A DNA stretch of 64,000 nt from Paragemmobacter straminiformis (GTDB lineage: Bacteria; Pseudomonadota; Alphaproteobacteria; Rhodobacterales; Rhodobacteraceae): positions 186,001 to 250,000 of the forward strand of contig NZ_JACLQD010000003.1 of NCBI RefSeq assembly GCF_014243445.1. The letters run 5' to 3'. Positions within the stretch are counted from its first letter, which is position 1, and every line of letters begins with the position of its first letter. The notes beneath the pieces are model-generated. The model worked only from the letters and a program-made list of their open reading frames with translations. It was not told where the DNA came from and searched no databases. The position numbers and the translations under genes were made by a program. Shown piece by piece: positions 31,103 to 46,078 of this stretch.

Positions 31103-31518
31103 ACCCACCCCCGTTATCCTGTTGGGGTTGTCTAGCCCAGCCATCCGGGCCTGCCAAGGCTTTTCCCGGTGTCGATGCGTTCGCGACCGCGTTGCAGGGC
31201 CTGTCCGGCGAAAGAAAGCGCGCCCGCCCCCCTGACCGTCACCCTGCGGTAACAGATGGCACGCACGCGCCCCGCATGCGCCGTGCGCGCGAGGGGGCTG
31301 CCGGGGCGGTGATGCGGGCGGTGACAGGGGCGCGCGCAGCGCCGACCGGCGCTTGCCCCGCCGCGACAGGGCGGGGTGTGGCGGAGTTGCACCACGCAGA
31401 GGCGCATTCACATTGATTAACATGCGGGCGTTGCAATCGGGGTCGTTAGGAATGATTAACGATCCATCCCCACTCCGGATTCCCCTGGGCTGGGTTCCTT
31501 AAGACAACGAGGGAAACT
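31103..31518 (+). promoter_or_regulatory. 416-bp intergenic region upstream of porin 1
   Basis: No convincing gene. The left 300 bp is GC-rich. The right 110 bp is AT-richer and carries two TGATTAAC boxes (31414-31421 and 31453-31460). A weak promoter candidate is TTGCAA (31431) with TGATTA or GATTAA 16-17 bp downstream. The ribosome site GAGGG lies just before the porin ATG. A strongly regulated porin promoter is inferred, not shown. Confidence 0.4.
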
Positions 31519-32409
31519 ATGAAAAAGATTCTTCTTGCGACCACTGTTCTGGTCGGCACCGCTGGCTTCGCCGCTGCCGAAGTGACCCTGTCGGGCGACG
31601 CCCGCATGGGTATCGTCAACGACGGTGACACCACCGAATTCTCGAGCCGCGCTCGCGTCGCTTTCACCCTCTCGGGCGAAACCGATGGCGGCCTGTCGTT
31701 CGGCGCTTCGTTCCGTGCTGACAACGCTGTTGGCGCCAACGGCAACACCGACACCACCGACGGTTCCGTGTTCATCTCGGGCGCTTTCGGCAAACTGTCG
31801 ATGGGCAACGTTGCTGGCGCTGCTGAAGCTGCCGTCGGCGACCTGTCGGGCGTTGGCTACACCGGCCTCGGCGACTTCTCGGACACCGTCTACCTGACCG
31901 GTGACGGCGCTGAAGGCGAGCCGATCGTCCAGTACGCCTACACCGCTGGCGACCTGTCGGTCTACGCTTCGGCCTCGGACGGCGCCCAGGTGTCGAACTA
32001 CGCCCTCGGCCTCGGCTACAAGATGGGCGACTACAACTTCGGCATCGGCTACGAATCGACCGATGACGGCCTCTTTGGCGACGATGCGACCCACGTCGTG
32101 GCGTCGGCTGGCGGCACCTTCGGCGCTGTCTCGGCCAAAGTCGTGTACGGCCAGGCTGACCTCGGCTCGGGCTTCGACCTGACCCAGTACGGCCTGTCGG
32201 CCACCTACTCGGCGGACGCTCTGGCTGTGACCGGCTACTACAAAGTGGTCGACACCGACTTCATCGCCGGTGAAACCACCGCTGTTGGCCTCGGCGCTTC
32301 CTACGACCTCGGCGGCGGCGCTTCGGTCAAGGGCGGCGTTGTGAACGTCGACAACGAGTTCCTCGGCGACAACACCGCCTACGACCTCGGCGTGACCTTC
32401 TCGTTCTGA
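31519..32409 (+). CDS. Outer-membrane porin (Rhodobacter type), copy 1
   Basis: A 296-residue general porin; it forms water-filled channels for small solutes in the outer membrane. Signal peptide MKKILLATTVLVGTAGFAAA is cleaved before EVTLSGDARMGI. The mature protein is Gly/Asp/Ala-rich with alternating strands, an acidic loop, and ends in Phe (VTFSF), the outer-membrane assembly signal. Codon use is strongly biased to C-ending codons, as expected of a very highly expressed gene. Two paralogues lie at 45026 and 52699; signal-peptide DNA is identical over 56 bp to the latter. Confidence 0.94.
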   Translation: MKKILLATTVLVGTAGFAAAEVTLSGDARMGIVNDGDTTEFSSRARVAFTLSGETDGGLSFGASFRADNAVGANGNTDTTDGSVFISGAFGKLSMGNVAGAAEAAVGDLSGVGYTGLGDFSDTVYLTGDGAEGEPIVQYAYTAGDLSVYASASDGAQVSNYALGLGYKMGDYNFGIGYESTDDGLFGDDATHVVASAGGTFGAVSAKVVYGQADLGSGFDLTQYGLSATYSADALAVTGYYKVVDTDFIAGETTAVGLGASYDLGGGASVKGGVVNVDNEFLGDNTAYDLGVTFSF

Positions 32410-32432
32410 TCCTAACCGGTCAAACGATATGG

Positions 32433-32460
32433 AAAGAGCGGGCCTTGTGCCCGCTCTTTT
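32433..32460 (+). terminator. Terminator of porin 1
   Basis: AAAGAGCGGGC-CTTGT-GCCCGCTCTTT, 11-bp perfect stem with T run, starting 24 bp after the porin stop. Same loop as the porin 2 terminator. Confidence 0.95.
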
Positions 32461-32582
32461 CATTTGCGGGTGCAAGGCCCGGTGCTTGGCATGACCCCCG
32501 GCTTTGTCTTAAGGGTGGCTGTGATAACTTTCGTTAATGCGGTAAGACGCCGCAAAGCGGACAGGCAGGCGAGGGCACTGGA

Positions 32583-33257
32583 ATGATGAACGTCTTTATC
32601 GGTTTCGATGAACGCGAGGCGATTGCCTACCACGTATGTGTCAACAGCATCATCCGGCATTCGTCGGATGTGGTGGCGGTCACGCCGCTCGCCCTCAAGA
32701 ACCTGTCGACCTACAAGGAAACCCACAGCGACGGGTCGAACGCCTTTATCTACACGCGCTTTCTGGTGCCTTCGCTGATGAACTACCAGGGCTGGGCGCT
32801 GTTCATCGACGGCGACATGATCCTGCGCGACGATCTGGCGAAGCTGTGGGCGCTGCGCGACGAAAGCAAGGCCGTGCTGTGCGTGCATCATGATTACAAG
32901 ACGCGGCAATCGACGAAATACCTTGGCTCGGCGAACGAGGATTACCCGCGCAAGAACTGGTCGAGCGTGGTGCTGTGGAACTGCGGCCATCCGGCCAACC
33001 GCGTGGTCACGCCCGATTTCGTGGCCAAGGGCACCGGCGCGCAGCTGCACCGCTTTACGTGGCTGAGCGACGATCTGGTGGGCGAATTGCCCAAGGTCTG
33101 GAACTGGCTGCCCGACGAGCTGGGCGAGAACCCCGATGCCAAGCTGTTGCATTACACGCTGGGCACGCCCTGTTTCCACGAATACGCCGATACGCCGATG
33201 GGCAGCGAATGGCACCGCGAGCGGATGCTGACGGATTACTGCGCACAGCGCGATTGA
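32583..33257 (+). CDS. Family 8-like glycosyltransferase
   Basis: A 224-residue GT-A-fold candidate. It starts NVFIGFDEREAIAYHVC, typical of GT8-like enzymes, and has the metal/nucleotide-sugar motif DGD in WALFIDGDMILRDDL near residue 75, plus a C-terminal HYTLGTPCFHEY segment that resembles the second metal ligand His. Donor and acceptor are unknown. It is the first gene after porin 1 and opens the accessory surface-polymer region. ATG codons at 32583 and 32586 are both possible. Confidence 0.75.
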   Translation: MMNVFIGFDEREAIAYHVCVNSIIRHSSDVVAVTPLALKNLSTYKETHSDGSNAFIYTRFLVPSLMNYQGWALFIDGDMILRDDLAKLWALRDESKAVLCVHHDYKTRQSTKYLGSANEDYPRKNWSSVVLWNCGHPANRVVTPDFVAKGTGAQLHRFTWLSDDLVGELPKVWNWLPDELGENPDAKLLHYTLGTPCFHEYADTPMGSEWHRERMLTDYCAQRD

Positions 33258-33302
33258 CCGCCCGCCGCCGCAAGGCAGGGCCAAGCGCGGGACGCGGAAC
33301 AG

Positions 33303-34211
33303 ATGCTGGATCCTTTCGGTTTCATCGGACGATGGTTGGCGGCGCGGCGCGACCTGCAGACCGCCTTTGCGCATGAGCTGGCGGTTTGCGCCATCTTCAA
33401 GAACGAGGCGCGCTATCTCGACGAATGGCTGACATTTCACCACGGCGTCGGGGTCGGGCATTTCTATCTGTACAACGACGGCAGCACCGACGGTTTCGCC
33501 GAGGTGCTTGCCCCGTGGATCGCGGCGGGAAAGATCACCCTGACCGACTGGACGGTAAAGCCGCAGGTGCCTGCCTATAACGACTGCATCCTGCGGCGGC
33601 GGACCGAGGCGCGCTGGATCGCCTTTATCGACCTTGACGAATTCCTGTTCAGCCCGACCGGCGCGCCCCTGCCCGAGGTGCTGCGTGGCTATGCCGAGGC
33701 GGCGGCGGTCTTTGTCTATTGGGTGCTGTTCGGGTCGGGCGGGCACGAGGCGCAGCCCGATCTGCCGGTGGTCGAGGCCTATACCGCCTGCATGGGCCAT
33801 GCCGCGGCGCTGGCTGACGGTTTCGACCACGGCAAGGTCAAGGACAGGTCCAACTATGTGACCGGCTGGTCGCGCGACGGCAAAAGCATCGTGAACCCGC
33901 GCAAGGTGCGGTTTCAGGGGGTTCACGCGCCACGGGCTGTCTGGTCGGGGGCGACGGTCGACGAACGGGGCCGCCCGCCACGGCAGCGGTCGGACGATTG
34001 CGACCTGCCCTATGCGGTGTTGCGGATCAACCACTACTGGTCGAAGTCGCTTGACGAGTTCCGCGCCAAGATCGTTCGCGGCAGCATTGCCAACCGCACC
34101 CGCCCCGCGCGCAATCTGGCGCGCTGGCTGGAACGCGAGGCGATGCTGAACAGCGACCGCGACGAGACGATCTTGCCGATCTGGCGCCGGATCGTCGCGG
34201 CCCGCCGCTAG
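33303..34211 (+). CDS. Family 92-like glycosyltransferase
   Basis: A 302-residue protein with the GT92/GT2-like pattern: AVCAIFKNEARYLDEWLTFH, then FYLYNDGSTDGF, and the metal-binding ARWIAFIDLDEFLF near residue 107. The C-terminal half has LRINHYWSKSLDEFRAKI, common in this family. Probably transfers a sugar to a surface polymer or lipid-linked intermediate. It follows the family 8-like gene at 45 bp. Its TAG overlaps the stop of the opposite-strand adenylation gene. Confidence 0.82.
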   Translation: MLDPFGFIGRWLAARRDLQTAFAHELAVCAIFKNEARYLDEWLTFHHGVGVGHFYLYNDGSTDGFAEVLAPWIAAGKITLTDWTVKPQVPAYNDCILRRRTEARWIAFIDLDEFLFSPTGAPLPEVLRGYAEAAAVFVYWVLFGSGGHEAQPDLPVVEAYTACMGHAAALADGFDHGKVKDRSNYVTGWSRDGKSIVNPRKVRFQGVHAPRAVWSGATVDERGRPPRQRSDDCDLPYAVLRINHYWSKSLDEFRAKIVRGSIANRTRPARNLARWLEREAMLNSDRDETILPIWRRIVAARR

Positions 34212-36907
34212 GGACCAAGCAGGTGTTTGCGCAGGAAGGGCTTCAGCTCTCCCTTGCGGTGCAAAAGGTAGAGCAGCGGGTGTTCGTCAAAGCGCGGGTC
34301 TCCGGCCAGCGTGGCGCGGGGGAACAGGGCCGCCAGATCGGCGGCGGCGTCGCGGTCGCGGTCCTTGCCCGCCGAAAAGGCGATGGTGACGCGGGTTTCG
34401 GGCGACTGGTCAAGCCGCGTGGCCGCCTGCGCCAGAGGTGCCGCGAAATGCGGGTGCCGCTTGGGCGAGTCGGCCCCTGACAGCAGGATGCGGCGGCATC
34501 CGTTCTGCAGGCCCACGACCAGCGCCGGAATGCCGCCCGCGCTGGTGCCAAGCGCCACGGTTTCGCGATAGGCAAGCGGGGCCTGCCAATCGGCGATCCA
34601 GCGCGCCACCCCGCCAAGCGAGGTCGCCACCCCCGGCACGCCCGAGAAGTAATGCCTCCGGTCGGGGTCGCGCAGCAGCAAAAGGTCGTGCTGTGCAGGG
34701 TCGAGCGCGCAGAGGATCTGGTAGGTGGGCGCGGTCAGGCGCATGGCGCGGCTGGTAAAGCCGATGACCAGCGTCTTGCGGTTCGAGGGGACCGAGGGAT
34801 CGGTCATCAGATCGACGTTGTCCGAAACCGTCACGCGCTGCCACGCCAGGGGATCGGTCGCGTCGGCAAGGGTGGCTGCCACCTCGCGCGACCAGTCGGC
34901 GCGGCGGCGGGCAAGGGCGGTCCTGCCAAAGGGCCACCAGCCGCGCTTTTCCGGAGATGCTGCGAAAAGGCGGGTCAGCAGGGCGGGCGGGGCCACGTTT
35001 TCAAGCGTATGGCGGATGATGTCGAGTTCGACGATGCTGGTGCAGCGTTGCAGCAGAGTGTCGTCAAAGCCGTCGCGGTCGGCGGTTGCGGCCTGCACCG
35101 CGTCAAGCAGGGCGTCGCGGTCCTTGCGGTCGGCCTTGGTGCGGAAGGGCGGCTTTTCGGTCGCGCCAAGGGTGACGAGGAAGGCCGACATTTGCCGCAC
35201 GGTGTCGATCTGGGCCACGGCGTCATCGGGAATGCGCAGGCCCGTCAGCCGCTCGACCGCCAGAATGAGGCGCATGCTCGACAGGGAATCGCCGCCGATC
35301 TGCGCGAAGTCGTCGTCCAGCCCCACCTGCGGCAGGTCGAGCTCCTCGGCCCAAAGGGTTGCGACGGCGGTTTCCAGCGGGCTGGCCCGTTCGGGCTGCC
35401 CTTCGGGCGGGTGATCGGCCGCCTGTGCCTGTTCGGTGAAAGCGGCCGTCAGGGCGGTGCGCAGCACCTTTCCGATCGGGTTGCGCGGCAAGGCATCGAC
35501 CAGCACCAGATGGCGCGGCACCTTGAAGGGGGCCAGCGATGCGCCGATGTGGGTCTTGATGTCGCGCAGCGTCAGCGCAGCGCCCGCGCGGGGCACGACG
35601 GCGATGGCGATATCTTCGCCCAAGGTGGCATGGGGCACCGGAAAGCAGGCGGCGTGCAGGATGTCGGGGTGGGACAGCGCCACCTCGTCCACCTCTTGCG
35701 GGGCGATCTTTTCGCCGCCACGGTTGATGATGTCCTTTGACCGACCCGTCAGGAACAGGTCGCCGTCGGTGTCGAGATAGCCGAGGTCGCCGGTATAGAA
35801 CCAGCCGTTGCGGAAGGATTCGGCATTGGCCTCGGGATTGTTCTCGTAGCCTGTAAAGACGTTCGGGCCGCGAATGGCGACCTCGCCCCGTTCCAGTGCG
35901 GGCAGGGGGGTGCCGTGGTCGTCCATGATGGCGATTTCGGTTCCGCAGGGGGTGCCTGCCGATCCGGGCTTGCGCAGGGCGGGCGGCAGGCGGGTCGAGG
36001 CGATGAGGGGCGATGCTTCGGTCATGCCGAAGGTGGTGATGACGGGCAGGGCGAAAAGCTGTTCCAGTTCGGCCAGCTGCGCCGCAGGCAGGGCCGCCGC
36101 GACCGAGCGCAGGAACCGCAGCGACGACCCGCGCGGGTCGCGGCCTTCGCGGCGGGCGAGGGTGGCAATATCGCCCAAGGTGGTGGGCACGCCCTGAAAC
36201 CATGTGGGCTGCGCGCTGCCGAGCAGGTCGAAGAAGCGTTGCGCATCGAAACGCCCCGAGGCGACGACGCTGCCGCCTGCGAAGATCGGGGCAAGCAGCA
36301 GGTCGACGATGCCGCCGACATGGTGCAATTCCCACATGCTGAGAACGCGGTCCTGCGCTGTCAGCCCGAGCGAGCGGGCGACCTCGCGCGTTCCGGCCAG
36401 CAGGTTCGCATGGGTCAGCGGCACCAGCTTGCCGCGCCCCGTGGTGCCCGATGTCATCAGCACGATGGCCAGATCGGACGGATCGGGTGCGGCAAGCCGC
36501 GCATCGGCTTGCGGGGCCGAGACCGCGTGAAAGTCGAGCAAGGGCAGGTCCAGCACCTGCGCCGCTTCGGCGGCGGCGGGCAGGGCCTGCGGCAGCGTCA
36601 GAACGGCGGCGACCCCGGCCATCGAGAAATAGGCCAGCAGTTCGGACAGGGTCGAGGACGGGTTGAACGGCACGGCAACGCCCGCGATGGCCGTGGCGAA
36701 AAGCGCCTGGCACATCTCGGCCCCTGCGGGAAGGACAATGGCGATACGGCGTTTCGCGAAGCCCTTGGCCTGAAGCCCTGCCGCAAGCGACAGGACCGCC
36801 GATTCGAACGCCGCATAGTCAAGCGTGACGCCCTGCGGGATGATCAGGGCAGGCGCGTCGGGCGCGCGGCGGGCTGCGTCTTGCAGAAGTGTAAGGACGG
36901 TGGACAA
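34208..36907 (-). CDS. AMP-forming acyl/aminoacyl ligase - carrier protein - hydrolase-like fusion
   Basis: An 899-residue three-part protein. Residues about 1-490 are an ANL adenylating domain: MTSGTTGRGKLVPLTH (151-166), FGMTEASP (293-300), FYTGDLGYLDTDGDLFLTGR (370-389) and the late Lys in NPIGKVLR (477-483). Residues about 510-580 are a carrier domain with the pantetheine Ser541 in IGGDSLSSM. Residues about 590-899 contain GTSAGG, a serine-hydrolase-like elbow, followed by a late DEHPLLYLL that could hold a catalytic His. It should load an acyl or amino acid onto its own carrier. The start is TTG 36907, with AGGA 8 nt upstream; the sulfotransferase gene ends 19 bp before. Substrate unknown; a fatty-acyl, hydroxyacyl or amino acid decoration of a glycan is inferred from neighbours. 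Confidence 0.8.
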   Translation of the reverse strand: MSTVLTLLQDAARRAPDAPALIIPQGVTLDYAAFESAVLSLAAGLQAKGFAKRRIAIVLPAGAEMCQALFATAIAGVAVPFNPSSTLSELLAYFSMAGVAAVLTLPQALPAAAEAAQVLDLPLLDFHAVSAPQADARLAAPDPSDLAIVLMTSGTTGRGKLVPLTHANLLAGTREVARSLGLTAQDRVLSMWELHHVGGIVDLLLAPIFAGGSVVASGRFDAQRFFDLLGSAQPTWFQGVPTTLGDIATLARREGRDPRGSSLRFLRSVAAALPAAQLAELEQLFALPVITTFGMTEASPLIASTRLPPALRKPGSAGTPCGTEIAIMDDHGTPLPALERGEVAIRGPNVFTGYENNPEANAESFRNGWFYTGDLGYLDTDGDLFLTGRSKDIINRGGEKIAPQEVDEVALSHPDILHAACFPVPHATLGEDIAIAVVPRAGAALTLRDIKTHIGASLAPFKVPRHLVLVDALPRNPIGKVLRTALTAAFTEQAQAADHPPEGQPERASPLETAVATLWAEELDLPQVGLDDDFAQIGGDSLSSMRLILAVERLTGLRIPDDAVAQIDTVRQMSAFLVTLGATEKPPFRTKADRKDRDALLDAVQAATADRDGFDDTLLQRCTSIVELDIIRHTLENVAPPALLTRLFAASPEKRGWWPFGRTALARRRADWSREVAATLADATDPLAWQRVTVSDNVDLMTDPSVPSNRKTLVIGFTSRAMRLTAPTYQILCALDPAQHDLLLLRDPDRRHYFSGVPGVATSLGGVARWIADWQAPLAYRETVALGTSAGGIPALVVGLQNGCRRILLSGADSPKRHPHFAAPLAQAATRLDQSPETRVTIAFSAGKDRDRDAAADLAALFPRATLAGDPRFDEHPLLYLLHRKGELKPFLRKHLLGP

Positions 36908-36926
36908 GCGGTTTTCCTGTGCTGGA

Positions 36927-37673
36927 TCAGCCGCGCTCGGCCGCGAGGGCGGCGGCGAGACGGGATTCGAGGGCGGTGATGTCGAGACCGGCAAACCCGC
37001 GCAGCGCCGCGCGTTCGATGCGTTCCCGCAACCCGATCGCGCTGCTGCGACGGTTGAGGGCGGGACGACGCGAATCCTGCAAGGGGCGGCCGACAAAGGC
37101 TTGCAGCCGCCGCAGTTCGGCATCGTCGGTCAGAAGGGTTTCGTAGTTGAGCAGGATGCGCCGCGCGGGGGCGGTCGAGTCATAGGCGGCGAGCATGCCG
37201 TGATTGTAGAGATACCATGCCCGCAGCGCCCGCGCGCCACGGCTGACCGAAAGGTGTTTGCGCGCGGTGTAGTGCCGCCGCACGCTTGCCGCGCTGCGAT
37301 AGACGCAGATCACGCGCAGGTCGGGCAGGGCTTCGGCCCAGAAGGCGTGGGTCAGGCAAGAGCGGGGGTCCTTGAACCCCCAGTCACCGCCGGGGGCCGC
37401 GATTTCGGACGCAAGGGCCCGTGCCTCGGCGATGCGGTCGGCATGGTCGGGGCCTGCGGCATAGGGGGTGATGACGCGCAGGCTGTTCGCCTCGCCGCAG
37501 CCCAGCAGGCGCTTGTTCAGGCCGTTCGTCGAGAGCCGTTCGAAATGGTTGCCCTGATCGTAGCTGCGGGAATCGACGCCCTCGATCATGCCGATACCCG
37601 ATGCGTCGAGCATCTGGCTAAGCAGGGTCGTGCCTGACTTGTGCATGCCGAGGATGGTGTAGACCGTGGTCAT
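36927..37673 (-). CDS. Sulfotransferase-family protein
   Basis: A 248-residue protein with a PAPS-type 5' phosphosulfate loop at the N-terminus (ILGMHKSGTTLLSQML, residues 7-22) and a candidate 3' phosphate motif VICVYRSAASVRRHY near 120. This fits P-loop sulfotransferases that move sulfate from PAPS to hydroxyl or amino groups. It is encoded 19 bp upstream of the ligase-carrier fusion, probably in one transcript. ATG 37673 gives AAGGAAAAA about 9 nt upstream. Acceptor unknown; some family members act on other phosphate groups. Confidence 0.8.
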   Translation of the reverse strand: MTTVYTILGMHKSGTTLLSQMLDASGIGMIEGVDSRSYDQGNHFERLSTNGLNKRLLGCGEANSLRVITPYAAGPDHADRIAEARALASEIAAPGGDWGFKDPRSCLTHAFWAEALPDLRVICVYRSAASVRRHYTARKHLSVSRGARALRAWYLYNHGMLAAYDSTAPARRILLNYETLLTDDAELRRLQAFVGRPLQDSRRPALNRRSSAIGLRERIERAALRGFAGLDITALESRLAAALAAERG

Positions 37674-37777
37674 CGGGCGTTTTTCCTTTAGCCGGGAAGG
37701 CGAAGTCGTTAATTCCTGCGAATCGGCGCCGGTCGCGGTTTGCGAAGGGGCCGGAGCATTCAGAAAGAGGTTCGGTC

Positions 37778-38404
37778 GTGGCAGTCTTTTCGTGTCGTGG
37801 GCATTCGGTGCTGTTCGTCCATATTCCGAAATGCGCCGGGACAAGCGTTACGGCCATGCTCGAGGGGTTGGGCGAAAAGCGGTTCGATGATCGCATCCGC
37901 ATCGGCCGGCACGCGCTGCGCCCGCGCCATTTGCCGCGCGAGGCGCTGGAGCGGATCTTCCTGCCGGGGATGTTCGATTACAGTTTCATGATGGTCCGCA
38001 ACCCTGTCGAGCGTGTGCTGAGCGAATATCGCTACCAGTGCCGCAAGGCCTTTCCGCGTTGGCAGGCCATTCTGGGATTTGACCGTTGGCTTGCGCTGTC
38101 TTTGGCCCGCGCGGCGCAAGACCCGTGGTACCGCGAGAACCATTTCCGCCCGCAGACCGATTTCCGCGTGTTCGACTGCGATGTGTTCCGCATCGAGGAG
38201 GGGCTTGCCCCGCTGGTCGGCAAGCTGGCCGCAATCACGGGAATGGACATGCCCGCCGTGACCGAACACAGGAACCGGACCGAAGCGCAGGACATCAGGA
38301 TGACGCGCAGATCGCTCGAGTCGATCCTGCGCACCTATCGCGCCGACTTCGAGGCGTTCGGATATCCTTCGGAGGTTCAAGACTATCACTCGCTGTTGCG
38401 CTAG
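37778..38404 (+). CDS. Sulfotransferase family 2-like protein
   Basis: A 208-residue protein of the carbohydrate sulfotransferase (Sulfotransfer_2) type: SVLFVHIPKCAGTSVTAML (residues 10-28) is the 5' phosphosulfate site and FMMVRNPVERVLSEYRY (69-85) the 3' site. Such enzymes sulfate sugars. It starts at GTG 37778 with AGAAAGAGG 7 nt upstream and is divergent from the other sulfotransferase by about 104 bp. The stop is 2 bp from the converging glycosyltransferase-like gene. Confidence 0.88.
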   Translation: MAVFSCRGHSVLFVHIPKCAGTSVTAMLEGLGEKRFDDRIRIGRHALRPRHLPREALERIFLPGMFDYSFMMVRNPVERVLSEYRYQCRKAFPRWQAILGFDRWLALSLARAAQDPWYRENHFRPQTDFRVFDCDVFRIEEGLAPLVGKLAAITGMDMPAVTEHRNRTEAQDIRMTRRSLESILRTYRADFEAFGYPSEVQDYHSLLR

Positions 38405-38405
38405 G

Positions 38406-39194
38406 TCAGAGGTGCCAGTGTTCCGCCGCGAACGGCGCCTGTTTCAGGTGGCCGTGGTGGCGGTGCAAGACGTCCTTGGGCTTGGTCTGGCCTGAAAACG
38501 AGACGATCGCCTCGCCCTTTCCCGGAAGGCGGGCCTTGCCCAGAAAGGCGGTGGTCAGGCCCAGTTGCCCGGCGCGGCGGCCGAGGAAATAGCTGAAGGA
38601 TCGGGCCGCGCAATCGACGCGGAAGATGATGATCTTGTTGTCGGGGAAATGGTCCATCTCGCGCCCTTTGAAATGGTGTTCAAGCCAGCGCTGTTCGCTG
38701 AAGGGGTTGTCGTTCTTGCCCGGCAGCCTGTTCGACCAGCCTTGGACATCGGCCACGAAGTCGTTCCAGATATGCGCCATCGAGCCGACCCGCAGCCGGT
38801 AGACCGCGCCATGCCCGCGCGAACGGGTGCGGCTTGCCCTGTGGCGGGCGATGACGAAATCGAGTTCGGGCCGGTCGGCAAGGAAATCGAGGCTGCCGAC
38901 GATCACGATGTCGATGTCGAGGCTGACGACGTAATCTTTCGGGCCAAGCCCGAGGAAGCCTTCGGAGAAGGTATAGATCTTGGGGCCGTTTCCGATGCGC
39001 CCCAATTCCGAGAGGGGGGCGGTTTCAATATCGGCGGCAAGGCCGGTCGTGTCATCGGTCAGGCAAAAGAACCGATGCGGAATCGACAGGTTGCGGCGCA
39101 CGCTGGCGCGCAGGATGTTCACTTCCTCAGACGAATACCGGTCGCCCCATTTGTAGCAGATGATATTGAGATGCTTGATGGGCGCATGTGACAT
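38406..39194 (-). CDS. Glycosyltransferase-like protein, paralogue A
   Basis: A 262-residue protein beginning KHLNIICYKWGDRYSSEEVN, with a DxD-like motif in YVVSLDIDIVIVGSLDFL near residue 90 that suggests a nucleotide-sugar-dependent GT-A fold. It is clearly related to the gene at 39476 (ICYKWG versus VCIKWG; FFCLTDD versus FICFTDN; LDIDIVIVG versus FDIDVVVTG). The two are divergent across about 280 bp. ATG 39194 is preferred; an ATG at 39251 would add 19 polar residues without a ribosome site. Donor and acceptor are unknown. Confidence 0.72.
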   Translation of the reverse strand: MSHAPIKHLNIICYKWGDRYSSEEVNILRASVRRNLSIPHRFFCLTDDTTGLAADIETAPLSELGRIGNGPKIYTFSEGFLGLGPKDYVVSLDIDIVIVGSLDFLADRPELDFVIARHRASRTRSRGHGAVYRLRVGSMAHIWNDFVADVQGWSNRLPGKNDNPFSEQRWLEHHFKGREMDHFPDNKIIIFRVDCAARSFSYFLGRRAGQLGLTTAFLGKARLPGKGEAIVSFSGQTKPKDVLHRHHGHLKQAPFAAEHWHL

Positions 39195-39354
39195 GGGCGT
39201 TTGCGGCTTTCCTTGTTTCGCCGGTATCAACCGACCGATCTTTCGAGACATTCAATCAATCTTTAGGTCCGTCCGAGCGACGTTTTCCCGCGGATGGCGG
39301 CCTGTTGCGGCCTAAATCCCGACTCCGGAACATGGACTTCGGCGCGTCGTTCAG

Positions 39355-39369
39355 TTAACCATCACTAAC
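39355..39369. promoter_or_regulatory. CtrA-like candidate site between divergent paralogues
   Basis: TTAACCATCACTAAC in the 281-bp divergent region of the two KWG-type genes. It resembles the alphaproteobacterial CtrA box (TTAA-N7-TTAA) but the right half is imperfect. Nothing else is evident in this gap. Confidence 0.3.
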
Positions 39370-39475
39370 AGAATGTTCAAACGGACTCTGGCGATCGCGC
39401 GTTTCGGAAAGCCGGTGCAACGGCGGTCCGGACGGCTTTCGTCATAGTTGTCCCTGCGTAAAGGCGTTGCCTGAT

Positions 39476-40249
39476 TTGGCCGACAAAGCACCAGTCAATG
39501 TCGTTTGCATAAAATGGGGCCAGAAATACGGGCAACATTATGTGAACAACCTGTATCGCGGCGTGTCGCGTTTCATGGACCGTGATTTCCGGTTCATCTG
39601 CTTTACCGACAATGCGCGCGGTCTCGACAGCGGGATAGAAATCCAGCCGATTCCGGTCGAACCTTTCGAGCATGCCTATGACTACGGCCGCACGCGCGAG
39701 GGGCGCAAAGGCGCGTGGCGCAAGATCTCGCTGTTCAAACCGGGTCTTGCCGGAATGCAGGGCCAGATGATCGGGTTCGACATCGATGTGGTCGTGACCG
39801 GACCGCTTGGCCCGATCCTCGACTTTGCGCCCGGGCGCGTGGCCTTTCGGCGCGAGTGGCGTTACGCGCGCTTCGGACGTCAGGGGGGGCACGGATCGGT
39901 CTTTACCTTCGACCCGTCGCTGCACCCCTATCTTTACGAGGATTTCGCCCGCGATCCGATCCGGATGATCGATATGCACAAGGGCAGCGAGCAATATTAC
40001 TCGTCGATCACGGCGCTGCGGCACGGGCAGCTCAGCTATCTGCCGAACGAGCTGGTTTGCAGCTACAAGCGCGACCTTCTGCCGGTTTTCCCGCTGAACC
40101 TGCTGCGCCAGCCGCAGCCGCCCAAAGGGTGCAGCGTGCTGTGCTTTCACGGCAAGCCGAGCATCGAAGAGGCGCTTGCCGGTGTCAGCCGGCCGCTGCG
40201 CTATCGGGCCAAGGGCTTTGAATGGTTGAAAGAATATTGGACGGCCTGA
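39476..40249 (+). CDS. Glycosyltransferase-like protein, paralogue B
   Basis: A 257-residue paralogue of the 38406 gene: VNVVCIKWGQKYGQHYVNNL at the N-terminus, FRFICFTDNARGL, and a DxD-like MIGFDIDVVVTGPLG near residue 100. A conserved late FHGKPSIEEAL may bind the acceptor or metal. No ATG is available; TTG 39476 is 11 nt after AAGG, whereas TTG 39467 would be only 2 nt from it, so the shorter start is preferred. Precedes the amidohydrolase gene by 43 bp on the same strand. Confidence 0.72.
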   Translation: MADKAPVNVVCIKWGQKYGQHYVNNLYRGVSRFMDRDFRFICFTDNARGLDSGIEIQPIPVEPFEHAYDYGRTREGRKGAWRKISLFKPGLAGMQGQMIGFDIDVVVTGPLGPILDFAPGRVAFRREWRYARFGRQGGHGSVFTFDPSLHPYLYEDFARDPIRMIDMHKGSEQYYSSITALRHGQLSYLPNELVCSYKRDLLPVFPLNLLRQPQPPKGCSVLCFHGKPSIEEALAGVSRPLRYRAKGFEWLKEYWTA

Positions 40250-40292
40250 ACCGCCGCCCCTTTGGTGCGGCCAGAGAAGAACGGAACATGCT

Positions 40293-41456
40293 GTGACGGA
40301 TGCTGCAATCAACGTGCCCGCGACACGGACGCCCTATTACAAGGAACTCGCCCGGGCGATCCAGGCGCATGGCGGCCATTTCAATTCGCATCTGCATCTG
40401 GACCGCGCCGGAACCTATCACGAGACGTTGCGGATCCTGACCGGAAGCACGCTTCAGGACGCGACCACGCTGACCCTTGCGGGAAAGCATGCGCTGATTC
40501 CGCTGATTCACCAAAGCGCGCTTTACGACCCGCCGGTGTTGGCCGAGCGCGTCGCCTTTTATCTGGACGAGATGATCGCCGCCGGAACGCGGCGGGCCGA
40601 CAGTGTGGTCGATACCACGGCGGATCGGGTGGAATTGTCGGCGCTGCACGTCTTTGCCGAATTGCAGGACCGGTATCGCGGGCGGCTCGACCTGCGCTTC
40701 GGGGCCTATACGCCGCTGGGCCTGCGCGATGACGAGCCGCGCCGCTGGGCGCTGCTGGAAGAAGGGGCGCGCTTTGCCGATTTTCTGGGGCTGTTGCCGG
40801 AACGCGATGACCGCGAGATGTATCCCGACCATATCGGGTTCCGCGAAAGCTGCCTGCGGGGCATTTCGCTGGCGCGGTCTTTGGGCAAGCACATCCACAT
40901 CCATGTCGATCAGGCGAACCACGCCGCCGAGGGTGCGACCGAAATCCTTCTGGATGTGCTGGACGAAATCGGCGGGCCGGTGCCGCAGCCCGAGCCGGAC
41001 GTCTGGCTTATTCACGTCATCTCGCCCTCGACCTATGACGAGGGGCGCTTCGAGACGCTGGTGCAGCGCATGGCCGGACATAATGTCGGTGTGATCACCT
41101 GCCCGTCGGGTGCGATCAGCATGCGGCAATATCGGGGCCTGACCTCGCCCACGTTCAACTCGATCGCGCGGGTTCTCGAGTTTCTGGCCGCCGGAATTCA
41201 GGTGCGGATCGGGTCGGACAACATCTGCGATGTCACCTCGCCGCTGGGCACGCCCGACATGATGGACGAGGTTTTCGTTCTGGCGAATGCGCTGCGCTTC
41301 TATGACATCGAAATCCTTGCGAAACTGGCCGCGGGCAAGGCGCTTGACGCTGCCGAGCGCGCGCGGATCGCGGCGCATCTTGAAAATGACCGCGAGATCG
41401 CGGGCAGGATCGAAGCCGGTGTGCGCGCCAAGCTTGACGCCCGGCCGCGCGGCTAG
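40293..41456 (+). CDS. Amidohydrolase-superfamily protein (cytosine deaminase-like)
   Basis: A 387-residue metal-dependent hydrolase. Metal-site motifs are NSHLHLDRAGTYHE (residues 31-44), HIHIHVDQANH near 202, a His in WLIHVISPS near 238 and the catalytic Asp in IGSDNICDVTSP near 310. This pattern fits adenosine/cytosine deaminase-like amidohydrolases acting on a ring or amidine C-N bond. It starts at GTG 40293 because no other in-frame start has support. Within a glycan-type cluster it might deacetylate or deaminate a nucleotide sugar or amine precursor; that is only inference from position. Confidence 0.78.
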   Translation: MTDAAINVPATRTPYYKELARAIQAHGGHFNSHLHLDRAGTYHETLRILTGSTLQDATTLTLAGKHALIPLIHQSALYDPPVLAERVAFYLDEMIAAGTRRADSVVDTTADRVELSALHVFAELQDRYRGRLDLRFGAYTPLGLRDDEPRRWALLEEGARFADFLGLLPERDDREMYPDHIGFRESCLRGISLARSLGKHIHIHVDQANHAAEGATEILLDVLDEIGGPVPQPEPDVWLIHVISPSTYDEGRFETLVQRMAGHNVGVITCPSGAISMRQYRGLTSPTFNSIARVLEFLAAGIQVRIGSDNICDVTSPLGTPDMMDEVFVLANALRFYDIEILAKLAAGKALDAAERARIAAHLENDREIAGRIEAGVRAKLDARPRG

Positions 41457-41459
41457 GCG

Positions 41460-42974
41460 TCATTCATAGGCGAAGGGCGCGGGGTCGATCTGCCCCGAGG
41501 GGATGCCGATCACCGGCGGCGCTGTGGCCGGTTTGGTTCCCGACAGGCAGGCGAGGATATCGCCAAGAAGGGCCGGGGTCGTCACCGGCCTGCCGCCATG
41601 ATCCAGCGCCGCGCAGGTGCCGGGGTATTTGACAGCCGCCAGAACGCCGAAGGTGTCGGTCAGGGCAAAGGCCGAAGCCTCGGGCGTTTGCGGCGCTTCC
41701 GACAGGCCCACGCCCATGTCGCCAAAGACGAAAACGATGGCATCGGGGCTTTGCGCCTCGATCTCGGTCAGAAGCCGGTCCATCAGCCGCGCGGCGGTTT
41801 CGGTCGAGGCGGCATAGCGTTCGGCGAAATCGGCGGTGGCGGCCGGATCGGGCGCGTCGAGCTTTGGCCCCCGATAGTGGTAGGGCGGGCGGAAATGGCC
41901 CAGAAGGACGGTCGGTTCCGGGTTCGCAAGCGCCGTGCCGATGGCGGCAGCATAGGTTTCGGCAAGATCGGCCTCGGTCGGGCCGAAGCTTGCGTAAAGG
42001 CGGCTGTCGCGCAGGGTGCAGGCCCCGATGAACAGCGTGTTCCGCACCGCATCGGGCAGGAAGGTATCGGCGCAAACCGAGGCATCGCGGGCGATGGTCA
42101 GCCGGTCGATAAAGGGTCCGGCGAAGCGGCCGAACTTGCGGTCCTCGGTGACGGCGTCGATCCTGTAGCCATTGGCGGCAAAGGCATCGAACACGGCACT
42201 GGGTTGCGCGCCGGTGAAGGCATGGCCCGAATCGTCGCTTTCGTCATCGGGCAGGATGCGGGCGTTGCCGAGGGTGAGCAGCGCTTCGTAAGAGCGGCGG
42301 GTCGGAGATGCGCCGGAAAAGCTGTTGGGAATGCGGGTCAGCCCGTGCCGTTCCAGCACATCCTGCAAGCCCGTCGCGGTCAGGCCAAGGTGGTCTTGCG
42401 CGATCCGGTCGGGAATGGCCGACAGGAAGCCGAGCAGAAAGACATCGGGGCGTTTGGCAAAGCGCGGGGCATTGGCGGAAGGCGCGGGCAGGTCGCGCGC
42501 GGCTTGCCCCTGCCACGCGGCGCGGCGGTCAAGCGCCTCGGGCGTCAGATAGGCGACGGACCCGACAAGCGCCGTGGCGGCAAGCGCGGTTGCCAGCGGA
42601 ACGATCAGGCTTTGGCTGCCGTCGGCCCTGCCCCTGCCGACCCATGCCCCCAGAAGGCACAGGGCGAAACCGCCAGCCGCAAGGGTCAGCCCGCTTGGCC
42701 CCGACGCGGGGGCCAGAAGGCAGGCGGTGTAGCCTTGCGCTCCGGCTGCCAGTGCTGCCGCCAGAAGCCAGCCGATCCGGCGCGGGGCAAAGGACAGAAG
42801 CGCGGTCGAGACCAGCAGCGCCAGAACCAGCGTCAGCAGGATGACCACGGCATCGGGCGTGGCGACGATGGGCCAAAGATAGCCAAGGCTCGCCGCGACT
42901 GCCGTGACCAGCGACGTTGCGGCAAAGACGACCGGACCGGAGACGGCGGCATCGGGGGCGGGTGTTCGGGTCAG
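41460..42974 (-). CDS. Membrane sulfatase-like protein with degenerate active site
   Basis: About 504 residues. Five N-terminal membrane segments (about 10-165) are followed by an alkaline phosphatase/sulfatase-like domain (about 195-500), as in phosphoethanolamine transferases and LTA-synthase-like proteins. The nucleophile region SGASPTRRSYEALLTLG is recognisable. However the first metal Asp (usual ViDSlR) is replaced in FLLGFLSAIPDRI, and the usual DHG is DMG in VFGDMGVGLS. The only in-frame start upstream of the first membrane segment is CTG 42974, overlapping the preceding TGA as CTGA and lying 8 nt after GGAG. It may be a pseudoenzyme or transfer an unusual group. Confidence 0.65.
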   Translation of the reverse strand: MTRTPAPDAAVSGPVVFAATSLVTAVAASLGYLWPIVATPDAVVILLTLVLALLVSTALLSFAPRRIGWLLAAALAAGAQGYTACLLAPASGPSGLTLAAGGFALCLLGAWVGRGRADGSQSLIVPLATALAATALVGSVAYLTPEALDRRAAWQGQAARDLPAPSANAPRFAKRPDVFLLGFLSAIPDRIAQDHLGLTATGLQDVLERHGLTRIPNSFSGASPTRRSYEALLTLGNARILPDDESDDSGHAFTGAQPSAVFDAFAANGYRIDAVTEDRKFGRFAGPFIDRLTIARDASVCADTFLPDAVRNTLFIGACTLRDSRLYASFGPTEADLAETYAAAIGTALANPEPTVLLGHFRPPYHYRGPKLDAPDPAATADFAERYAASTETAARLMDRLLTEIEAQSPDAIVFVFGDMGVGLSEAPQTPEASAFALTDTFGVLAAVKYPGTCAALDHGGRPVTTPALLGDILACLSGTKPATAPPVIGIPSGQIDPAPFAYE

Positions 42975-43753
42975 GAGGTAAGCTCCGCTGCGACGGGTTT
43001 CGGGGACAGACCGCGTTTGTAGGACAAGAGATCGAAGTCGCTGGCGAAAAGGTCGGTCACCAGCGCCTCGGCGGCGGGGGTGTAGAATTCGGCCAGTTTG
43101 GCGCTTGCCCTTGTGCGTGTCTGGCTGTTCACCTGACCCATCCGCTGGGCAAGATCGCGCCCGACGGGAATTTCGCGGCGGGTCAGCAGATCGATGAAGC
43201 AATCGGGAAATTCTTCGAAGCGCAGCACGCTGTCATAGGCCGAGAGCGGCGCGAAGATCAGCTTGTGCTGCGCGTCCCAATGCGGGTCTTTCGTCAAGGC
43301 GCCGTCGGCCAGCCATTTGAGAAAGTCGGAAAACCCGCCCCGGTCGAGAGGGAAGGCGCGGAAATCGCTTTGGTAGCTGTCCTTGGCGAATTTGTTCAGA
43401 AAGGCCGACAGCACGCGCGAATAGGGGTCGCGGGTGATGACGAAGAAATGCATGTCGCGCGCGCGGCGCAGTTCGGGCCAGCTTGCGCTTTCCAGATGGC
43501 GCAGGCTGCGCTTGGCAGACTGGTCTTCCAGCCGCCGCCCTGTTCCCAGTTCGGTCAGGATCGAGACGGTGGTCGAGTTGGCATTCTTTTTCACGCGGTT
43601 GTAGCCAAGGCCGATCTGCGGAAAGAGGCTGACATGACGGGCCGCCGCAGGGTTGACCGTGGCCGGATCGAAACGGTCGCCCAGCAGAACCGGCAGCATG
43701 CGCCGCGTCGCCGCGCGTTTGGTCCGTTCCAGCGCGTCGGACAGGATACTCAT
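42971..43753 (-). CDS. Sulfotransferase family 2-like protein
   Basis: A 260-residue protein resembling carbohydrate sulfotransferases. The 5' loop is less standard (IGLGYNRVKKNANSTTVSIL, residues 48-67), with NANSTT in place of a P-K-[CT]-[AG]-[ST] motif; the 3' site FVITRDPYSRVLSAFLNKF (about 104-122) is typical. The ATG overlaps the upstream gene stop (ATGA) and its own TGA overlaps the CTG of the sulfatase-like gene (CTGA), so three genes are translationally linked. The acceptor is unknown. Confidence 0.8.
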   Translation of the reverse strand: MSILSDALERTKRAATRRMLPVLLGDRFDPATVNPAAARHVSLFPQIGLGYNRVKKNANSTTVSILTELGTGRRLEDQSAKRSLRHLESASWPELRRARDMHFFVITRDPYSRVLSAFLNKFAKDSYQSDFRAFPLDRGGFSDFLKWLADGALTKDPHWDAQHKLIFAPLSAYDSVLRFEEFPDCFIDLLTRREIPVGRDLAQRMGQVNSQTRTRASAKLAEFYTPAAEALVTDLFASDFDLLSYKRGLSPKPVAAELTS

Positions 43754-44520
43754 GGTTTCACCATCATGACAAAAGGGGAAAGCTCGGGTTCGGTGGTGGA
43801 AAGCCGGTGCGTTCCGGCCAGCTTTTGCAGCAGGATCACATCGGCCTGAACGTGTTTCGGCAGCGCATCGGCGCGATTGGCCTTGTTGCGGGTGATCTCG
43901 CCGCCCATCAGGAATTCGTTGCGTCCGGCAAGGCCGATGCCCGACAGCACATAATGCGCATCGGGGCCGTTTTCCGCGATGGCGACCAGCAGCGCCAGAA
44001 GTCCGGTCGAGGGGCGGTATTTCGCCCGCGCGTCCTTGTGCCCTTGGCCCAAAAGCCAGCCGAGGCGCAGTTTCTGGATCTCGACCCAGTCGCGCGCCAC
44101 GACGGGCAGCGGCTGGCGAAAGAAACTGGCGTCGGTCACCGGATAGCCGCAGCCGCCGATGCGGCGGGTCAGGGCGCGGCGTTCGGCGACGCTGTAAAGC
44201 GTGGTGCCCTTGGCAAAGCCGCCTTCGAGCAGGCCGCGCGCCCGGTTGACCAGATCGCGCCCGCCCGGATCGGCGAAAAGGACCAGTCGGTCAAAGCCGC
44301 AGTGGCGGACCGTTTCCAGCTTGCGGCGGTAAAGCGCGTCGTTCGGCCCGCCCTCGATCAGCCCTTTGGCCATGACAAGGGCGCTGGCGACGACTGTCTT
44401 TTCGGCAAAGCCTGCGGCCTCGGACTCGCGGTCCATGATCGCGGCGTTGGCGGCATAGATCGCATCGCCGGCGGGAAGCGCCGATCCGGGTTTCGCGCCG
44501 AAGATGACGACTGTTTTCAG
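43750..44520 (-). CDS. Putative glycosyltransferase 29-like (sialyltransferase-type) protein
   Basis: About 256 residues. The fold begins immediately with a strand-glycine loop (LKTVVIFGAKPGSALPAGD), and a segment PSTGLLALLVAIAENGPDA near residue 170 resembles sialylmotif S of GT29 enzymes; SGIGL then follows. Recognition is weak. The first in-frame start that keeps this N-terminus is CTG 44520, with AAGGA 8 nt upstream; the alternative ATG 44616 adds 32 Arg/Pro-rich residues. It heads the three-gene overlapping set with the sulfotransferase and sulfatase-like genes. Confidence 0.5.
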   Translation of the reverse strand: MKTVVIFGAKPGSALPAGDAIYAANAAIMDRESEAAGFAEKTVVASALVMAKGLIEGGPNDALYRRKLETVRHCGFDRLVLFADPGGRDLVNRARGLLEGGFAKGTTLYSVAERRALTRRIGGCGYPVTDASFFRQPLPVVARDWVEIQKLRLGWLLGQGHKDARAKYRPSTGLLALLVAIAENGPDAHYVLSGIGLAGRNEFLMGGEITRNKANRADALPKHVQADVILLQKLAGTHRLSTTEPELSPFVMMVKP

Positions 44521-45025
44521 GGCATCGGTCCTTGCGTGCTGGGCGGGGCGGGGCGCGGAACAGGCGGCACGGGCGACAAGGAACACGGGGCGCAAGGTGG
44601 CGCGGCGCGGTAACATCGGGCCGCGCCGGATGCGCCGCATTTGGGTAGCACCGCAGGCCGCCTTGATCCAGCCCGCGGGTGGTTGGTGGCGAAAAATCGG
44701 TGCGGCCTGTCGTGAAGCGAATCGGGCGGGGGCGGGAATGGCGGGCCGTCCGCGACCGTTGCGTTAGCAGGGCCTTGGGCGTACGGGCCGTTCGGGCGGG
44801 CCGGGGTGACGCTGCGGAAGGCGGGCGCATCGGCCTTTGGATCAAGGGTTTACGCCCCCGCGCGCGGCGCTTTGCCTGTGATGCGCCAATGCATCGCACT
44901 GTGGCGATGATGCACCATGACACCCGCGTTTTCGCCGCATCTGCAACCTTGGGGTTCACCTGATACGGAAACGCAGACTATTTTCCGCCCCATCGGAGTG
45001 TTTGTAACCCGTAAGGAGAGTTCCT
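44521..45025 (+). promoter_or_regulatory. 505-bp intergenic region upstream of porin 2
   Basis: No convincing gene; short open frames here lack family resemblance or ribosome sites. The last 100 bp before the porin is AT-richer, with a weak promoter-like TTCACC...CTATTT pair 17 bp apart (about 44956-44984) and the ribosome site AAGGAGAG (45015-45022). It must also contain the promoter of the minus-strand GT29-like operon. Confidence 0.35.
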
Positions 45026-45973
45026 ATGAAAAAGATCCTGCTCGCGACGACCGTGTTCGTTGCAGCTTCCGCCGCCGCCCACGCTGAAGTGACCCTGTCG
45101 GGAACCGCGCGTATGGGCATCATCGCCCAGAACGTCGACACCGATCCGCTGTTCAACGGCGAGACGATTGAATCGCAAACCGGTCTGACCTCGCGCGCTC
45201 GCGTCGCCTTCAGTGCTTCGGGCACCAGCGACTCGGGCCTCGAGTTCGGCGCCGGCTTCCGCGCTGACAATGCCGCTGCCGCCAATTCGGGCACCGCTGG
45301 TTCGGTGTTTGTCTCGGGCGCCTTTGGCAAACTGGCTATGGGCGACGTCGACTCGGCCGCCAACACGCTGGTTGGCAACGTGTCGGGCGTGGGCCTGACC
45401 GGTCTGGGCGATTCGAACGAACTTGGCTATGTTGGCGGTCCGGCCGGTGCCTTGTACACCTACTCGTCGGGCGCTCTGAGCCTGGCTCTGTCGGTTAAGG
45501 GCCTTGGCGCTACGCCGGTCAACAACAAGGACACCGCTCTTGCGACCCTGACCGATGCAGACGCCAAAAATACCAAGGCTGACGCGCAGTCGATCGCCGT
45601 TGGTTACAAGACCGATGCCTACAGCGTTGCTCTGGGCTACGAAAAAGCCACCATCGACACCGACATCACGGCTGCTGGCACCACCGAAGACACCGTTGAC
45701 CAGCTTTCGCTGGGCGTTTCGGGCACCTTCGCTGGCGCGACCGTCAAAGCTGTCGTTGCCGACAACGGCACCAACGTGCTGAAAGCGGTTTCGGTTGACT
45801 ACACCGTGTCGGGCATCGTTGCGACCGCTTTCGCTGCTGACAAGGGCGACAACAACTCCTACGGCCTCGGCGGTTCGTACGACCTCGGCGGTGGCGCTTC
45901 CTTCGTTGCTGGTATCCAGCAAACCGAAGGTTCGGACACCCAGTACGACGCTGGTCTGTCGTTCTCGTTCTGA
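45026..45973 (+). CDS. Outer-membrane porin (Rhodobacter type), copy 2
   Basis: A 315-residue paralogue of porin 1. Signal peptide MKKILLATTVFVAASAAAHA precedes EVTLSGTARMGI. The N-terminal and C-terminal strands are close to porin 1 (LTSRARVAFSASGTSDSGLE; SYDLGGGASFVAGIQQ; ending LSFSF), while the central loops differ (a long KGLGATPVNNKDTAL insertion), suggesting different pore or receptor properties. Strong C-ending codon bias indicates high expression. With porin 1 it flanks the accessory surface-polymer genes in the same orientation. Confidence 0.94.
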   Translation: MKKILLATTVFVAASAAAHAEVTLSGTARMGIIAQNVDTDPLFNGETIESQTGLTSRARVAFSASGTSDSGLEFGAGFRADNAAAANSGTAGSVFVSGAFGKLAMGDVDSAANTLVGNVSGVGLTGLGDSNELGYVGGPAGALYTYSSGALSLALSVKGLGATPVNNKDTALATLTDADAKNTKADAQSIAVGYKTDAYSVALGYEKATIDTDITAAGTTEDTVDQLSLGVSGTFAGATVKAVVADNGTNVLKAVSVDYTVSGIVATAFAADKGDNNSYGLGGSYDLGGGASFVAGIQQTEGSDTQYDAGLSFSF

Positions 45974-45993
45974 TCCGTCAGAACCTGATGGGG

Positions 45994-46024
45994 AAAGGGC
46001 GGGCCTTGTGCCCGCCCTTTTTCT
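45994..46024 (+). terminator. Terminator of porin 2
   Basis: AAAGGGCGGGC-CTTGT-GCCCGCCCTTT (45994-46020), 11-bp stem with T run; same loop as porin 1 with two compensating arm changes. Confidence 0.95.
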
Positions 46025-46078
46025 TTGCTTTCCGTGGCGTTGCGGGGCGCTAGATTGGCGCTGAACACGGGGGTTGGC

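Follow-up and report, generated by a model that had tools for sequence, protein, structure and literature searches.

Several described systems share parts with the locus analysed here. A glycan region on pSymB of Sinorhizobium meliloti (L156, L188) holds genes for GT92, GT8-like, ELM1/GtrOC1, GT39, KpsF/GutQ and sulfotransferase family 2 proteins. For the pSymB K-antigen region, possibly the same stretch, published work reports that the rkp genes stay and that the neighbouring transferase genes are replaced (PMC5429615). Loading modules of the nonribosomal peptide synthetase (NRPS)-like kind join adenylation, carrier and thioesterase domains, and cytosine-deaminase-like amidohydrolases (PRK06886, PRK07583) offer a further comparison. 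Our subject is a stretch of 64,000 nt from Paragemmobacter straminiformis (contig NZ_JACLQD010000003.1; hereafter the window, in which all coordinates are given), where two co-oriented Porin_4 genes, porA (31519-32409) and porB (45026-45973), enclose eleven closely spaced genes. In this set, which was not found described in the literature searched (listings at the level of titles, several of them empty), genes of sugar-transfer and sulfotransferase type accompany an amidohydrolase and a fused ligase, carrier and hydrolase-fold protein.

On pSymB, relatives of the window's GT8-like (45%) and GT92-like (33%) glycosyltransferases, of the glycosyltransferase (GT)-like protein GTa (29%) and of the Sulfotransfer_2 proteins are found together in about 17 kb, with genes for KpsF/GutQ, GT39 and a polysaccharide pyruvyl transferase close by, whereas the 36.8 kb searched there (E 1e-3) gave no match to the amidohydrolase, the ligase-carrier fusion or the porins. 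The fusion resembles the NRPS-like modules in its series of AMP-binding, AMP-binding_C and PP-binding domains, all above the Pfam cut-off, followed by an alpha/beta-hydrolase fold. It differs in that its ligase is nearest, within the PDB, to oxalate-CoA ligases (5ie0, E 1.5e-89) and not to amino-acid adenylation domains, that its last 302 aa have no Pfam match, and that it is paired with an amidohydrolase. The amidohydrolase matches the cytosine-deaminase-like enzymes in sequence and in its HxH, HxDQ and (S/T)DN motifs, which are common to all eight aligned proteins, the window's included, but it falls below the cut-off of all six NCBIfam models that it matches, and it is linked to a carrier protein. 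Cytosine deaminases have HCDE, as against HxDQ in the window protein.

A conserved accessory block

The eleven genes form an accessory unit that is conserved and under purifying selection in a slot between paired porins. The site was placed by a yggS anchor in 18 of the 19 genomes of the genus, the P. straminiformis genome (G000) included; G010, with no yggS match, lies outside the 18. From each of the 17 other genomes, as much as 20 kb of the flank towards leuS was then taken (four of these segments being shortened by contig ends) and searched with the window proteins. One of the 17, G016 (JAIXZW010000003.1, Rhodobacteraceae bacterium isolate D8_MAG_00063), has all eleven genes between two porins, in identical order and orientation and with 50-94% protein identity. 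Pairwise ratios of nonsynonymous to synonymous substitution (dN/dS) against G016 range from 0.10 for the GT8-like gene, through 0.16 for the GT92-like gene, to 0.44 for the sulfatase-like gene, the highest of the eleven; leuS and yggS give 0.09 and 0.07, and single values are rough because dS reaches 1.04. The GT8-like gene, whose protein is 94% identical to the G016 copy, occurs in three of the 19 genus genomes, the G015 copy being a 44% relative at another place.

The bracketing porins, both on the plus strand, score 131.1 bits (porA) and 94.0 bits (porB) against a Pfam cut-off of 27. They are 39% identical in protein sequence, which agrees with the preliminary description of a block of about 12 kb bracketed by two co-oriented paralogous porins. 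Open frames are present for all of these genes, and packing is tight: all three convergent gene pairs end -4 to +3 bp apart. Promoter-like and terminator-like sites occur in numbers expected by chance. Recent import as judged by composition was considered and is unsupported, since block GC content in 1-kb windows (0.58-0.69) overlaps that of the flanks.

A slot with different cargo in different lineages

The slot is older than the block: the locus is ancestral in the genus, and its inter-porin gap takes different cargo in different lineages. The order at the site is leuS-DUF3576-porin on one side (DUF3576 at 96.1 bits in Pfam) and porin-yggS on the other. Among the 18 genomes with yggS, the gap holds the eleven-gene island in two and a sulfotransferase gene with tetratricopeptide repeats (TPR) in six (G001, G003, G007, G009, G012, G018). 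Five have two adjacent porins and an empty gap (G002, G004, G005, G006, G015). G013 has an ATP-grasp gene (RimK, 43.6 bits) next to a third porin, and G017 has an insertion sequence (IS)-like remnant (HTH_21) with one porin detected. Contig ends make the gap unreadable in the remaining three (G008, G011, G014). G001 additionally has a third porin, with an integrase gene between that porin and the pair. The locus thus behaves as a hotspot, with differing cargo inside the same conserved flanks and, in the one empty species aligned, flanks that are contiguous at the empty site. This comparison within the genus bears out the earlier proposal that the block is accessory.

The TPR-sulfotransferase is a counterpart of the block in that it occupies the same inter-porin position and is also a sulfotransferase; it differs in being a single gene with TPR repeats. 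The G018 copy, the one of the six run against Pfam, matches Sulfotransfer_3 at 138.7 bits. Used as query in a whole-genome search, it recovered itself (100%), relatives of 51-78% from the slot of each of the five further carriers, and a 33% relative from another place in G002; the remaining 12 of the 19 genomes, G000 and G016 included, have no match at E 1e-60.

Alignment with the inter-porin gap of G002 shows that the first part of that gap matches the porA terminator region and that its last part matches the region before porB (44860-45025 in the window, plus strand, limits approximate). Because terminator and porB upstream region are contiguous in this empty species, the two porins predate the block, which lies at their junction. 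A tree rooted at its midpoint and built from leuS, yggS, DUF3576 and a gene like that of DNA polymerase delta (DNA_pol3_delta_C, 27.4 bits against a cut-off of 27), in which the tips G008, G009, G011 and G014 rest on yggS alone, has G000 and G016 as sisters (0.983), followed by the empty G002 and then by G013. We infer that a single gain in the common ancestor of G000 and G016, rather than repeated loss, is the simplest account.

Mixed strands within the block, and the single genes of other families that the slot holds in other species, would also suit a collection of unrelated genes gathered at a permissive site and sharing no common pathway. We regard this as very unlikely, because G016 has the same eleven genes in the same order and because five of them (fusion, amidohydrolase, GTa, the sulfotransferase ST2b and the GT29-like candidate) lie together, at 42-67% identity, in L083, which belongs to another genus.

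Beyond the slot on the leuS side, an LptE-family gene (27427-27909, 37.5 bits) adjoins leuS, two genes ahead of the porins.

Porins, terminators and the means of exchange

The preliminary description saw in the porin pair homologous ends for gain or loss of the block. Homologous recombination between porA and porB would be consistent with several observations: the cargo between the paralogous co-oriented porins changes from species to species, no flanking direct repeats other than the porins and their terminators were found (short stretches of these reach 86-92% identity), and G000 and G016 do not have the same first porin, that of G016 being closest to porC (53%). Counter to this, porA and porB are only 58% identical as DNA, and the longest stretch in which they agree exactly measures 17 bp. 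A crossover would be expected to leave one chimeric porin, and the five empty species retain both; G017, with its one porin and IS-like remnant, is the only candidate for a single-porin deletion product. As a route of loss, the crossover was rejected on these grounds, and we give little credence to the porins as the general driver of gain and loss.

Direct repeats over 31300-46300 comprise one internal pair in addition to the porins and terminators. Since the only flanking repeats are the porins and terminators, donor DNA may have been exchanged by way of them, with the conserved flanks as homology arms. The block does not look like an island with its own integrase and terminal repeats, as its Pfam hits include no integrase or transposase domain and the direct repeats at its ends are the porins and their terminators. 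The earlier observation that both porins are followed by the same terminator is correct (core at 32439 and 46000), but this core is no mark of the block. It is also found, exactly, 3' of porins in G016, G013, G001, G002 and G012, and its presence after porins in empty or otherwise filled species makes it a common porin terminator of the genus.

Within the genus the genes are bracketed by porins in G016, as in the window. Outside it they stand apart from porins, which the preliminary description had named as evidence against its reading: tblastn with E limits from 1e-5 to 1e-3 found no relatives of the window's three porins beside the core genes in the contexts examined (L083 and L186 being short contigs). 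For this reason we see the porins as marking the site and probably not as taking part in the pathway.

The third Porin_4 gene of the window (52699-53673) lies on the strand opposite to porA and has 65% DNA identity to it; an ARAGORN call of tRNA-Leu (52746-52843) inside its 3' end is probably false. A Phage_integrase-family gene (51383-52336, minus strand, 102.6 bits) is situated 5.4 kb past porB, and a relative of it (53%) lies in G001 between the porin pair and the third porin (L060:6093-7046). We draw no conclusion from this position.

Genes for probable sugar transfer and sulfation

Two genes next to porA encode a GT8-like glycosyltransferase (32583-33257, plus strand; PF01501, 30.0 bits, cut-off 24.3) and a GT92-like glycosyltransferase (33303-34211, plus strand; PF01697, 90.6 bits, cut-off 23). 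GTa (38406-39206, minus strand, start approximate), which contains the DxD stretch SLDIDIVIVG, and GTb (39467-40249, plus strand) have no Pfam match and are paralogues of each other (30% over 161 aa, E 2e-19). Relatives of GTa were found at 65 loci, most of them distant, and only L082-L085 reach at least 59% identity over most of the length; the 61 other loci were searched with the window proteins, and L086 was also gene-called. GTa/GTb-type proteins (L086-L146) occur in many genomes of Planctomycetes, Verrucomicrobia and Opitutae.

Three genes encode proteins above the curated sulfotransferase cut-offs, for which PAPS (3'-phosphoadenosine 5'-phosphosulfate)-dependent activity is predicted: one of Sulfotransfer_3 (36927-37673, minus strand; PF13469, 53.9 bits) and two of Sulfotransfer_2 (37778-38404, plus strand; PF03567, 57.3 bits; and ST2b at 42971-43753, minus strand; PF03567, 53.5 bits). 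ST2b has a KKNxNSTT stretch common to three relatives. The preliminary description had given corresponding labels to these genes (GT8-like, GT92-like, a GT-like paralogue pair and three sulfotransferase-like genes), and had named an adenylation-carrier fusion and an amidohydrolase; these labels stand, that of the amidohydrolase by its sequence match.

Two further labels fared less well: the genes are there, and the families they were given are unproven. The GT29-like candidate (43750-44517, minus strand, first codon uncertain, frame open to 44640) has no meaningful Pfam match, and one of three members of its alignment reaches Glyco_transf_29 (PF00777) at E 0.27. An AlphaFold2 (AF2) model of the protein (pLDDT 64.3) matched no PDB structure at E 0.001. 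Profile comparison with hhalign gave probabilities of 8.5 and 0.5 for two S. meliloti proteins and 0.1 for part of a bacterial PF00777 member. We take its conserved stretch, RAKYRPSTG...LSGIG, to resemble sialyl motif S, and these tests do not confirm membership of GT29. The gene occurs in one of 394 family genomes at E 1e-6, its own, and additionally in G016 and L083; 72,556 plasmid records gave no match. Sequence searches of the PDB with the GT29-like protein, GTa and ST2b returned no relatives (E limits 1 or 0.1). The second label concerns a membrane protein with hydrophobic segments that is marginally sulfatase-like (41460-43000, minus strand). It does not itself match PF00884, and its orthologue does so below the cut-off, with 12.4 bits where 25 are required (E 0.098). 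Its mechanical frame runs to 43202 and overlaps the neighbouring gene by 232 bp; the true start is probably near 43000, because the G016 copy starts just past the sulfotransferase stop.

A recurring couple of amidohydrolase and ligase-carrier fusion

In the contexts examined, the amidohydrolase (40293-41456, plus strand) and the fusion of AMP-dependent acid ligase, acyl carrier and alpha/beta-hydrolase fold (34208-36913, minus strand, start approximate, frame open to 37123; PF00501, PF13193, PF00550) form a recurring couple, which is new. Ten contexts were compared: the window, G016, L083 (a Marinosulfonomonas metagenome-assembled genome), L155 (a Gemmobacter aquarius plasmid), G283, G170, G246, G344, G769 and G850. 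G344 was found through the fusion, G016 and L083 through GTa, and the other seven, the window included, through the amidohydrolase. In nine of the ten, no more than 10 kb separates the amidohydrolase from the ligase-carrier gene or from the ligase part of it; of the seven contexts found by way of the amidohydrolase, six have the couple, the exception being G246, where the ligase is elsewhere on the contig. The amidohydrolase is rare: at E 1e-20 it is found in 4 of 295 genomes of the family and, with the L083 protein as query, in 4 of 292 genomes of the order at E 1e-40 (own genome included in both counts).

The carrier GDSLS and hydrolase GTSxG serine motifs are present in all four aligned fusion-type proteins. 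The AF2 model of the C-terminal 302 aa (pLDDT 73.7, lower at the N-terminal end) retrieves alpha/beta-hydrolases in Foldseek, with a best E of 3.7e-7 and probability 1.00, at TM-scores of only about 0.35-0.64. From sequence and model, the protein is thus predicted to combine an adenylation domain, a carrier serine and a GxSxG alpha/beta hydrolase, the domain set of adenylation-carrier-thioesterase proteins. Oxalate specificity was considered for the ligase and not assigned, as the aligned residues differ (AMTEATH in 5ie0, GMTEASP in the fusion).

A profile of the C-terminal domain, which misses ligase-carrier proteins with another C-terminal part, finds this domain in nine of the 394 family genomes at E 1e-8. 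The long fusion (frames above 900 aa) is confined to G000, G283 and G344, and six more genomes have stand-alone forms of 299-369 aa. G170, G246 and G150 have long frames in which the match stops at residues 568-581. A three-gene module at L175:7941-10145 consists of a protein without Pfam match, a carrier (PF00550) and a stand-alone relative of the fusion C-terminal domain; L177 and L178 contain frames similar, as judged by eye, to this module.

Eight plasmid records matched, and the Gemmobacter one (61.5%) was followed. On this 284 kb plasmid (L155, NZ_CP028919.1) the couple lies near two alpha/beta hydrolases, a P450, a sulfotransferase and IS elements, and near a gene for a pore-forming outer membrane protein of a family other than that of the window's porins. 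At L187, in G850, the ligase-carrier, P450 and amidohydrolase genes stand beside a gene for an NMT1/THI5-type binding protein, with thiamine-like and ABC importer-like frames recognised by eye.

A sulfotransferase-type gene lies near the couple in six of the ten contexts (window, G016, L083, L155, G344 and G769); in the other four, a similarity search with the sulfotransferases of the window found nothing, no gene-by-gene scan having been made. In G769 the couple is flanked on one side by a Sulfotransfer_4 gene and on the other by a 1171-aa Sulfotransfer_3-like/GT2/WbsX protein (WbsX 403.8 bits). Amidohydrolase and fusion are separated in G344 by genes for a NeuB-family synthase (143.7 bits) and a cytidylyltransferase of CTP_transf_3 type (62.1 bits), and a sulfotransferase is nearby.

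This last arrangement raises the question of whether the block remodels nonulosonic acids, the amidohydrolase stripping an N-acyl group, the ligase-carrier-hydrolase adding another and the GT29-like protein transferring the sugar. PseB, PseC, PseF, PseG and PseI score above their NCBIfam cut-offs elsewhere in the P. straminiformis genome (G000:C10 391105-396541, L157), which therefore probably makes CMP-pseudaminate. Against this, the link is seen in one of the ten contexts, membership of GT29 is unproven, and the Pse locus, on the contig of the block at a distance of about 160 kb, may serve another structure, for example the flagellum. We think remodelling of this kind an improbable role for the block. 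In the Pse locus, PseG is fused to a weakly PseH-like domain that scores below the cut-off.

Proposed function of the block

We favour, with somewhat better than even confidence, the interpretation that the locus is an exchangeable slot and that the block, gained once by the common ancestor of G000 and G016 and kept by selection, decorates a glycan or glycolipid of the cell surface that is synthesised elsewhere. Enzymes of GT8, GT92 and GTa/GTb type, perhaps with the GT29-like protein, would add sugars, and the three PAPS-dependent sulfotransferases would sulfate them. The ligase-carrier-hydrolase protein would adenylate a carboxylic acid and hold it on its own phosphopantetheine, from which the alpha/beta-hydrolase-fold domain, through its GTSAG serine, may transfer it to the glycan, onto a hydroxyl or an amine. 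For its part, the amidohydrolase may prepare the acid or free the amine, while the porins would mark the site and stand outside the pathway. The gene set fits the making or decoration of a sulfated, acylated surface glycan or glycolipid, much as the preliminary description had suggested (with acylation or aminoacylation as an option), a product that is still deduced from the genes.

Several points weigh against this interpretation. The GT29 and sulfatase labels are weak. Pfam recognises no polymerase, flippase or exporter among the eleven genes, so that the locus does not look like one for capsule or O-antigen biosynthesis (of which a polymerase, a flippase or an ABC exporter would be typical). 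This agrees with the earlier remark that no standard capsule export gene is present, though four of the proteins could be assigned to no family. A single Poly_export match exists in the genome, on another contig and with no link to the block. The genes split into six alternating strand groups and so do not form a single operon. The modification proposed, by sugar transfer, sulfation and carrier-borne acylation, has a substrate and product that are only predicted. Finally, two kinds of neighbour of the couple would suit small-molecule chemistry too. A P450 gene is near the couple, or in G246 near the amidohydrolase alone, in five of the ten contexts (annotated in L155, identified by PF00067 in G283, and 30-33% identical to the G283 protein in G170, G246 and G850), and genes for NMT1-type substrate-binding proteins accompany the couple in G850 (259.4 bits) and G283 (23.6 bits).

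These neighbours could mean that the product of the block is a small metabolite, diffusible, sulfated and of acyl or amino-acyl type, which would be made on the carrier in NRPS-like fashion and glycosylated by the GTs in place of a surface polymer. Arguing for this case, the fusion resembles the logic of adenylation, peptidyl carrier and thioesterase domains, and the C-terminus of the Gemmobacter aquarius fusion is recognised as Pfam Thioesterase (28.3 bits, cut-off 26.4). Counter to this, the block has five GT or GT-like genes, one of them unconfirmed, in addition to three sulfotransferases; the WbsX/GT2 protein adjoins the couple in G769; and the relatives of GT8, GT92 and GTa in S. meliloti lie among polysaccharide genes. 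We consider a diffusible metabolite a possible product, on the unlikely side, and retain surface decoration as the preferred explanation.

The couple itself may have a role wider than the block. We raise, as a rather unlikely possibility, an undescribed two-protein system for acyl exchange. It would serve either surface glycans that are sulfated, nonulosonic acids among them, or small-molecule pathways in which a P450 takes part. One enzyme would remove an amide-linked group; the other would adenylate a small acid, carry it on phosphopantetheine and install it on the freed amine or hydroxyl. A couple of this chemistry was not found described in the literature searched at the level of titles, and it occurs with sulfotransferase and P450 partners alike.

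For the genus, the finding is that a porin-pair locus serves as a slot for probable surface-modifying genes. The block is probably an exchangeable module that alters cell-surface chemistry. Because the empty, single-gene and eleven-gene states occur in comparable positions, the gain of such a module and its effect could be tested by simple deletions.

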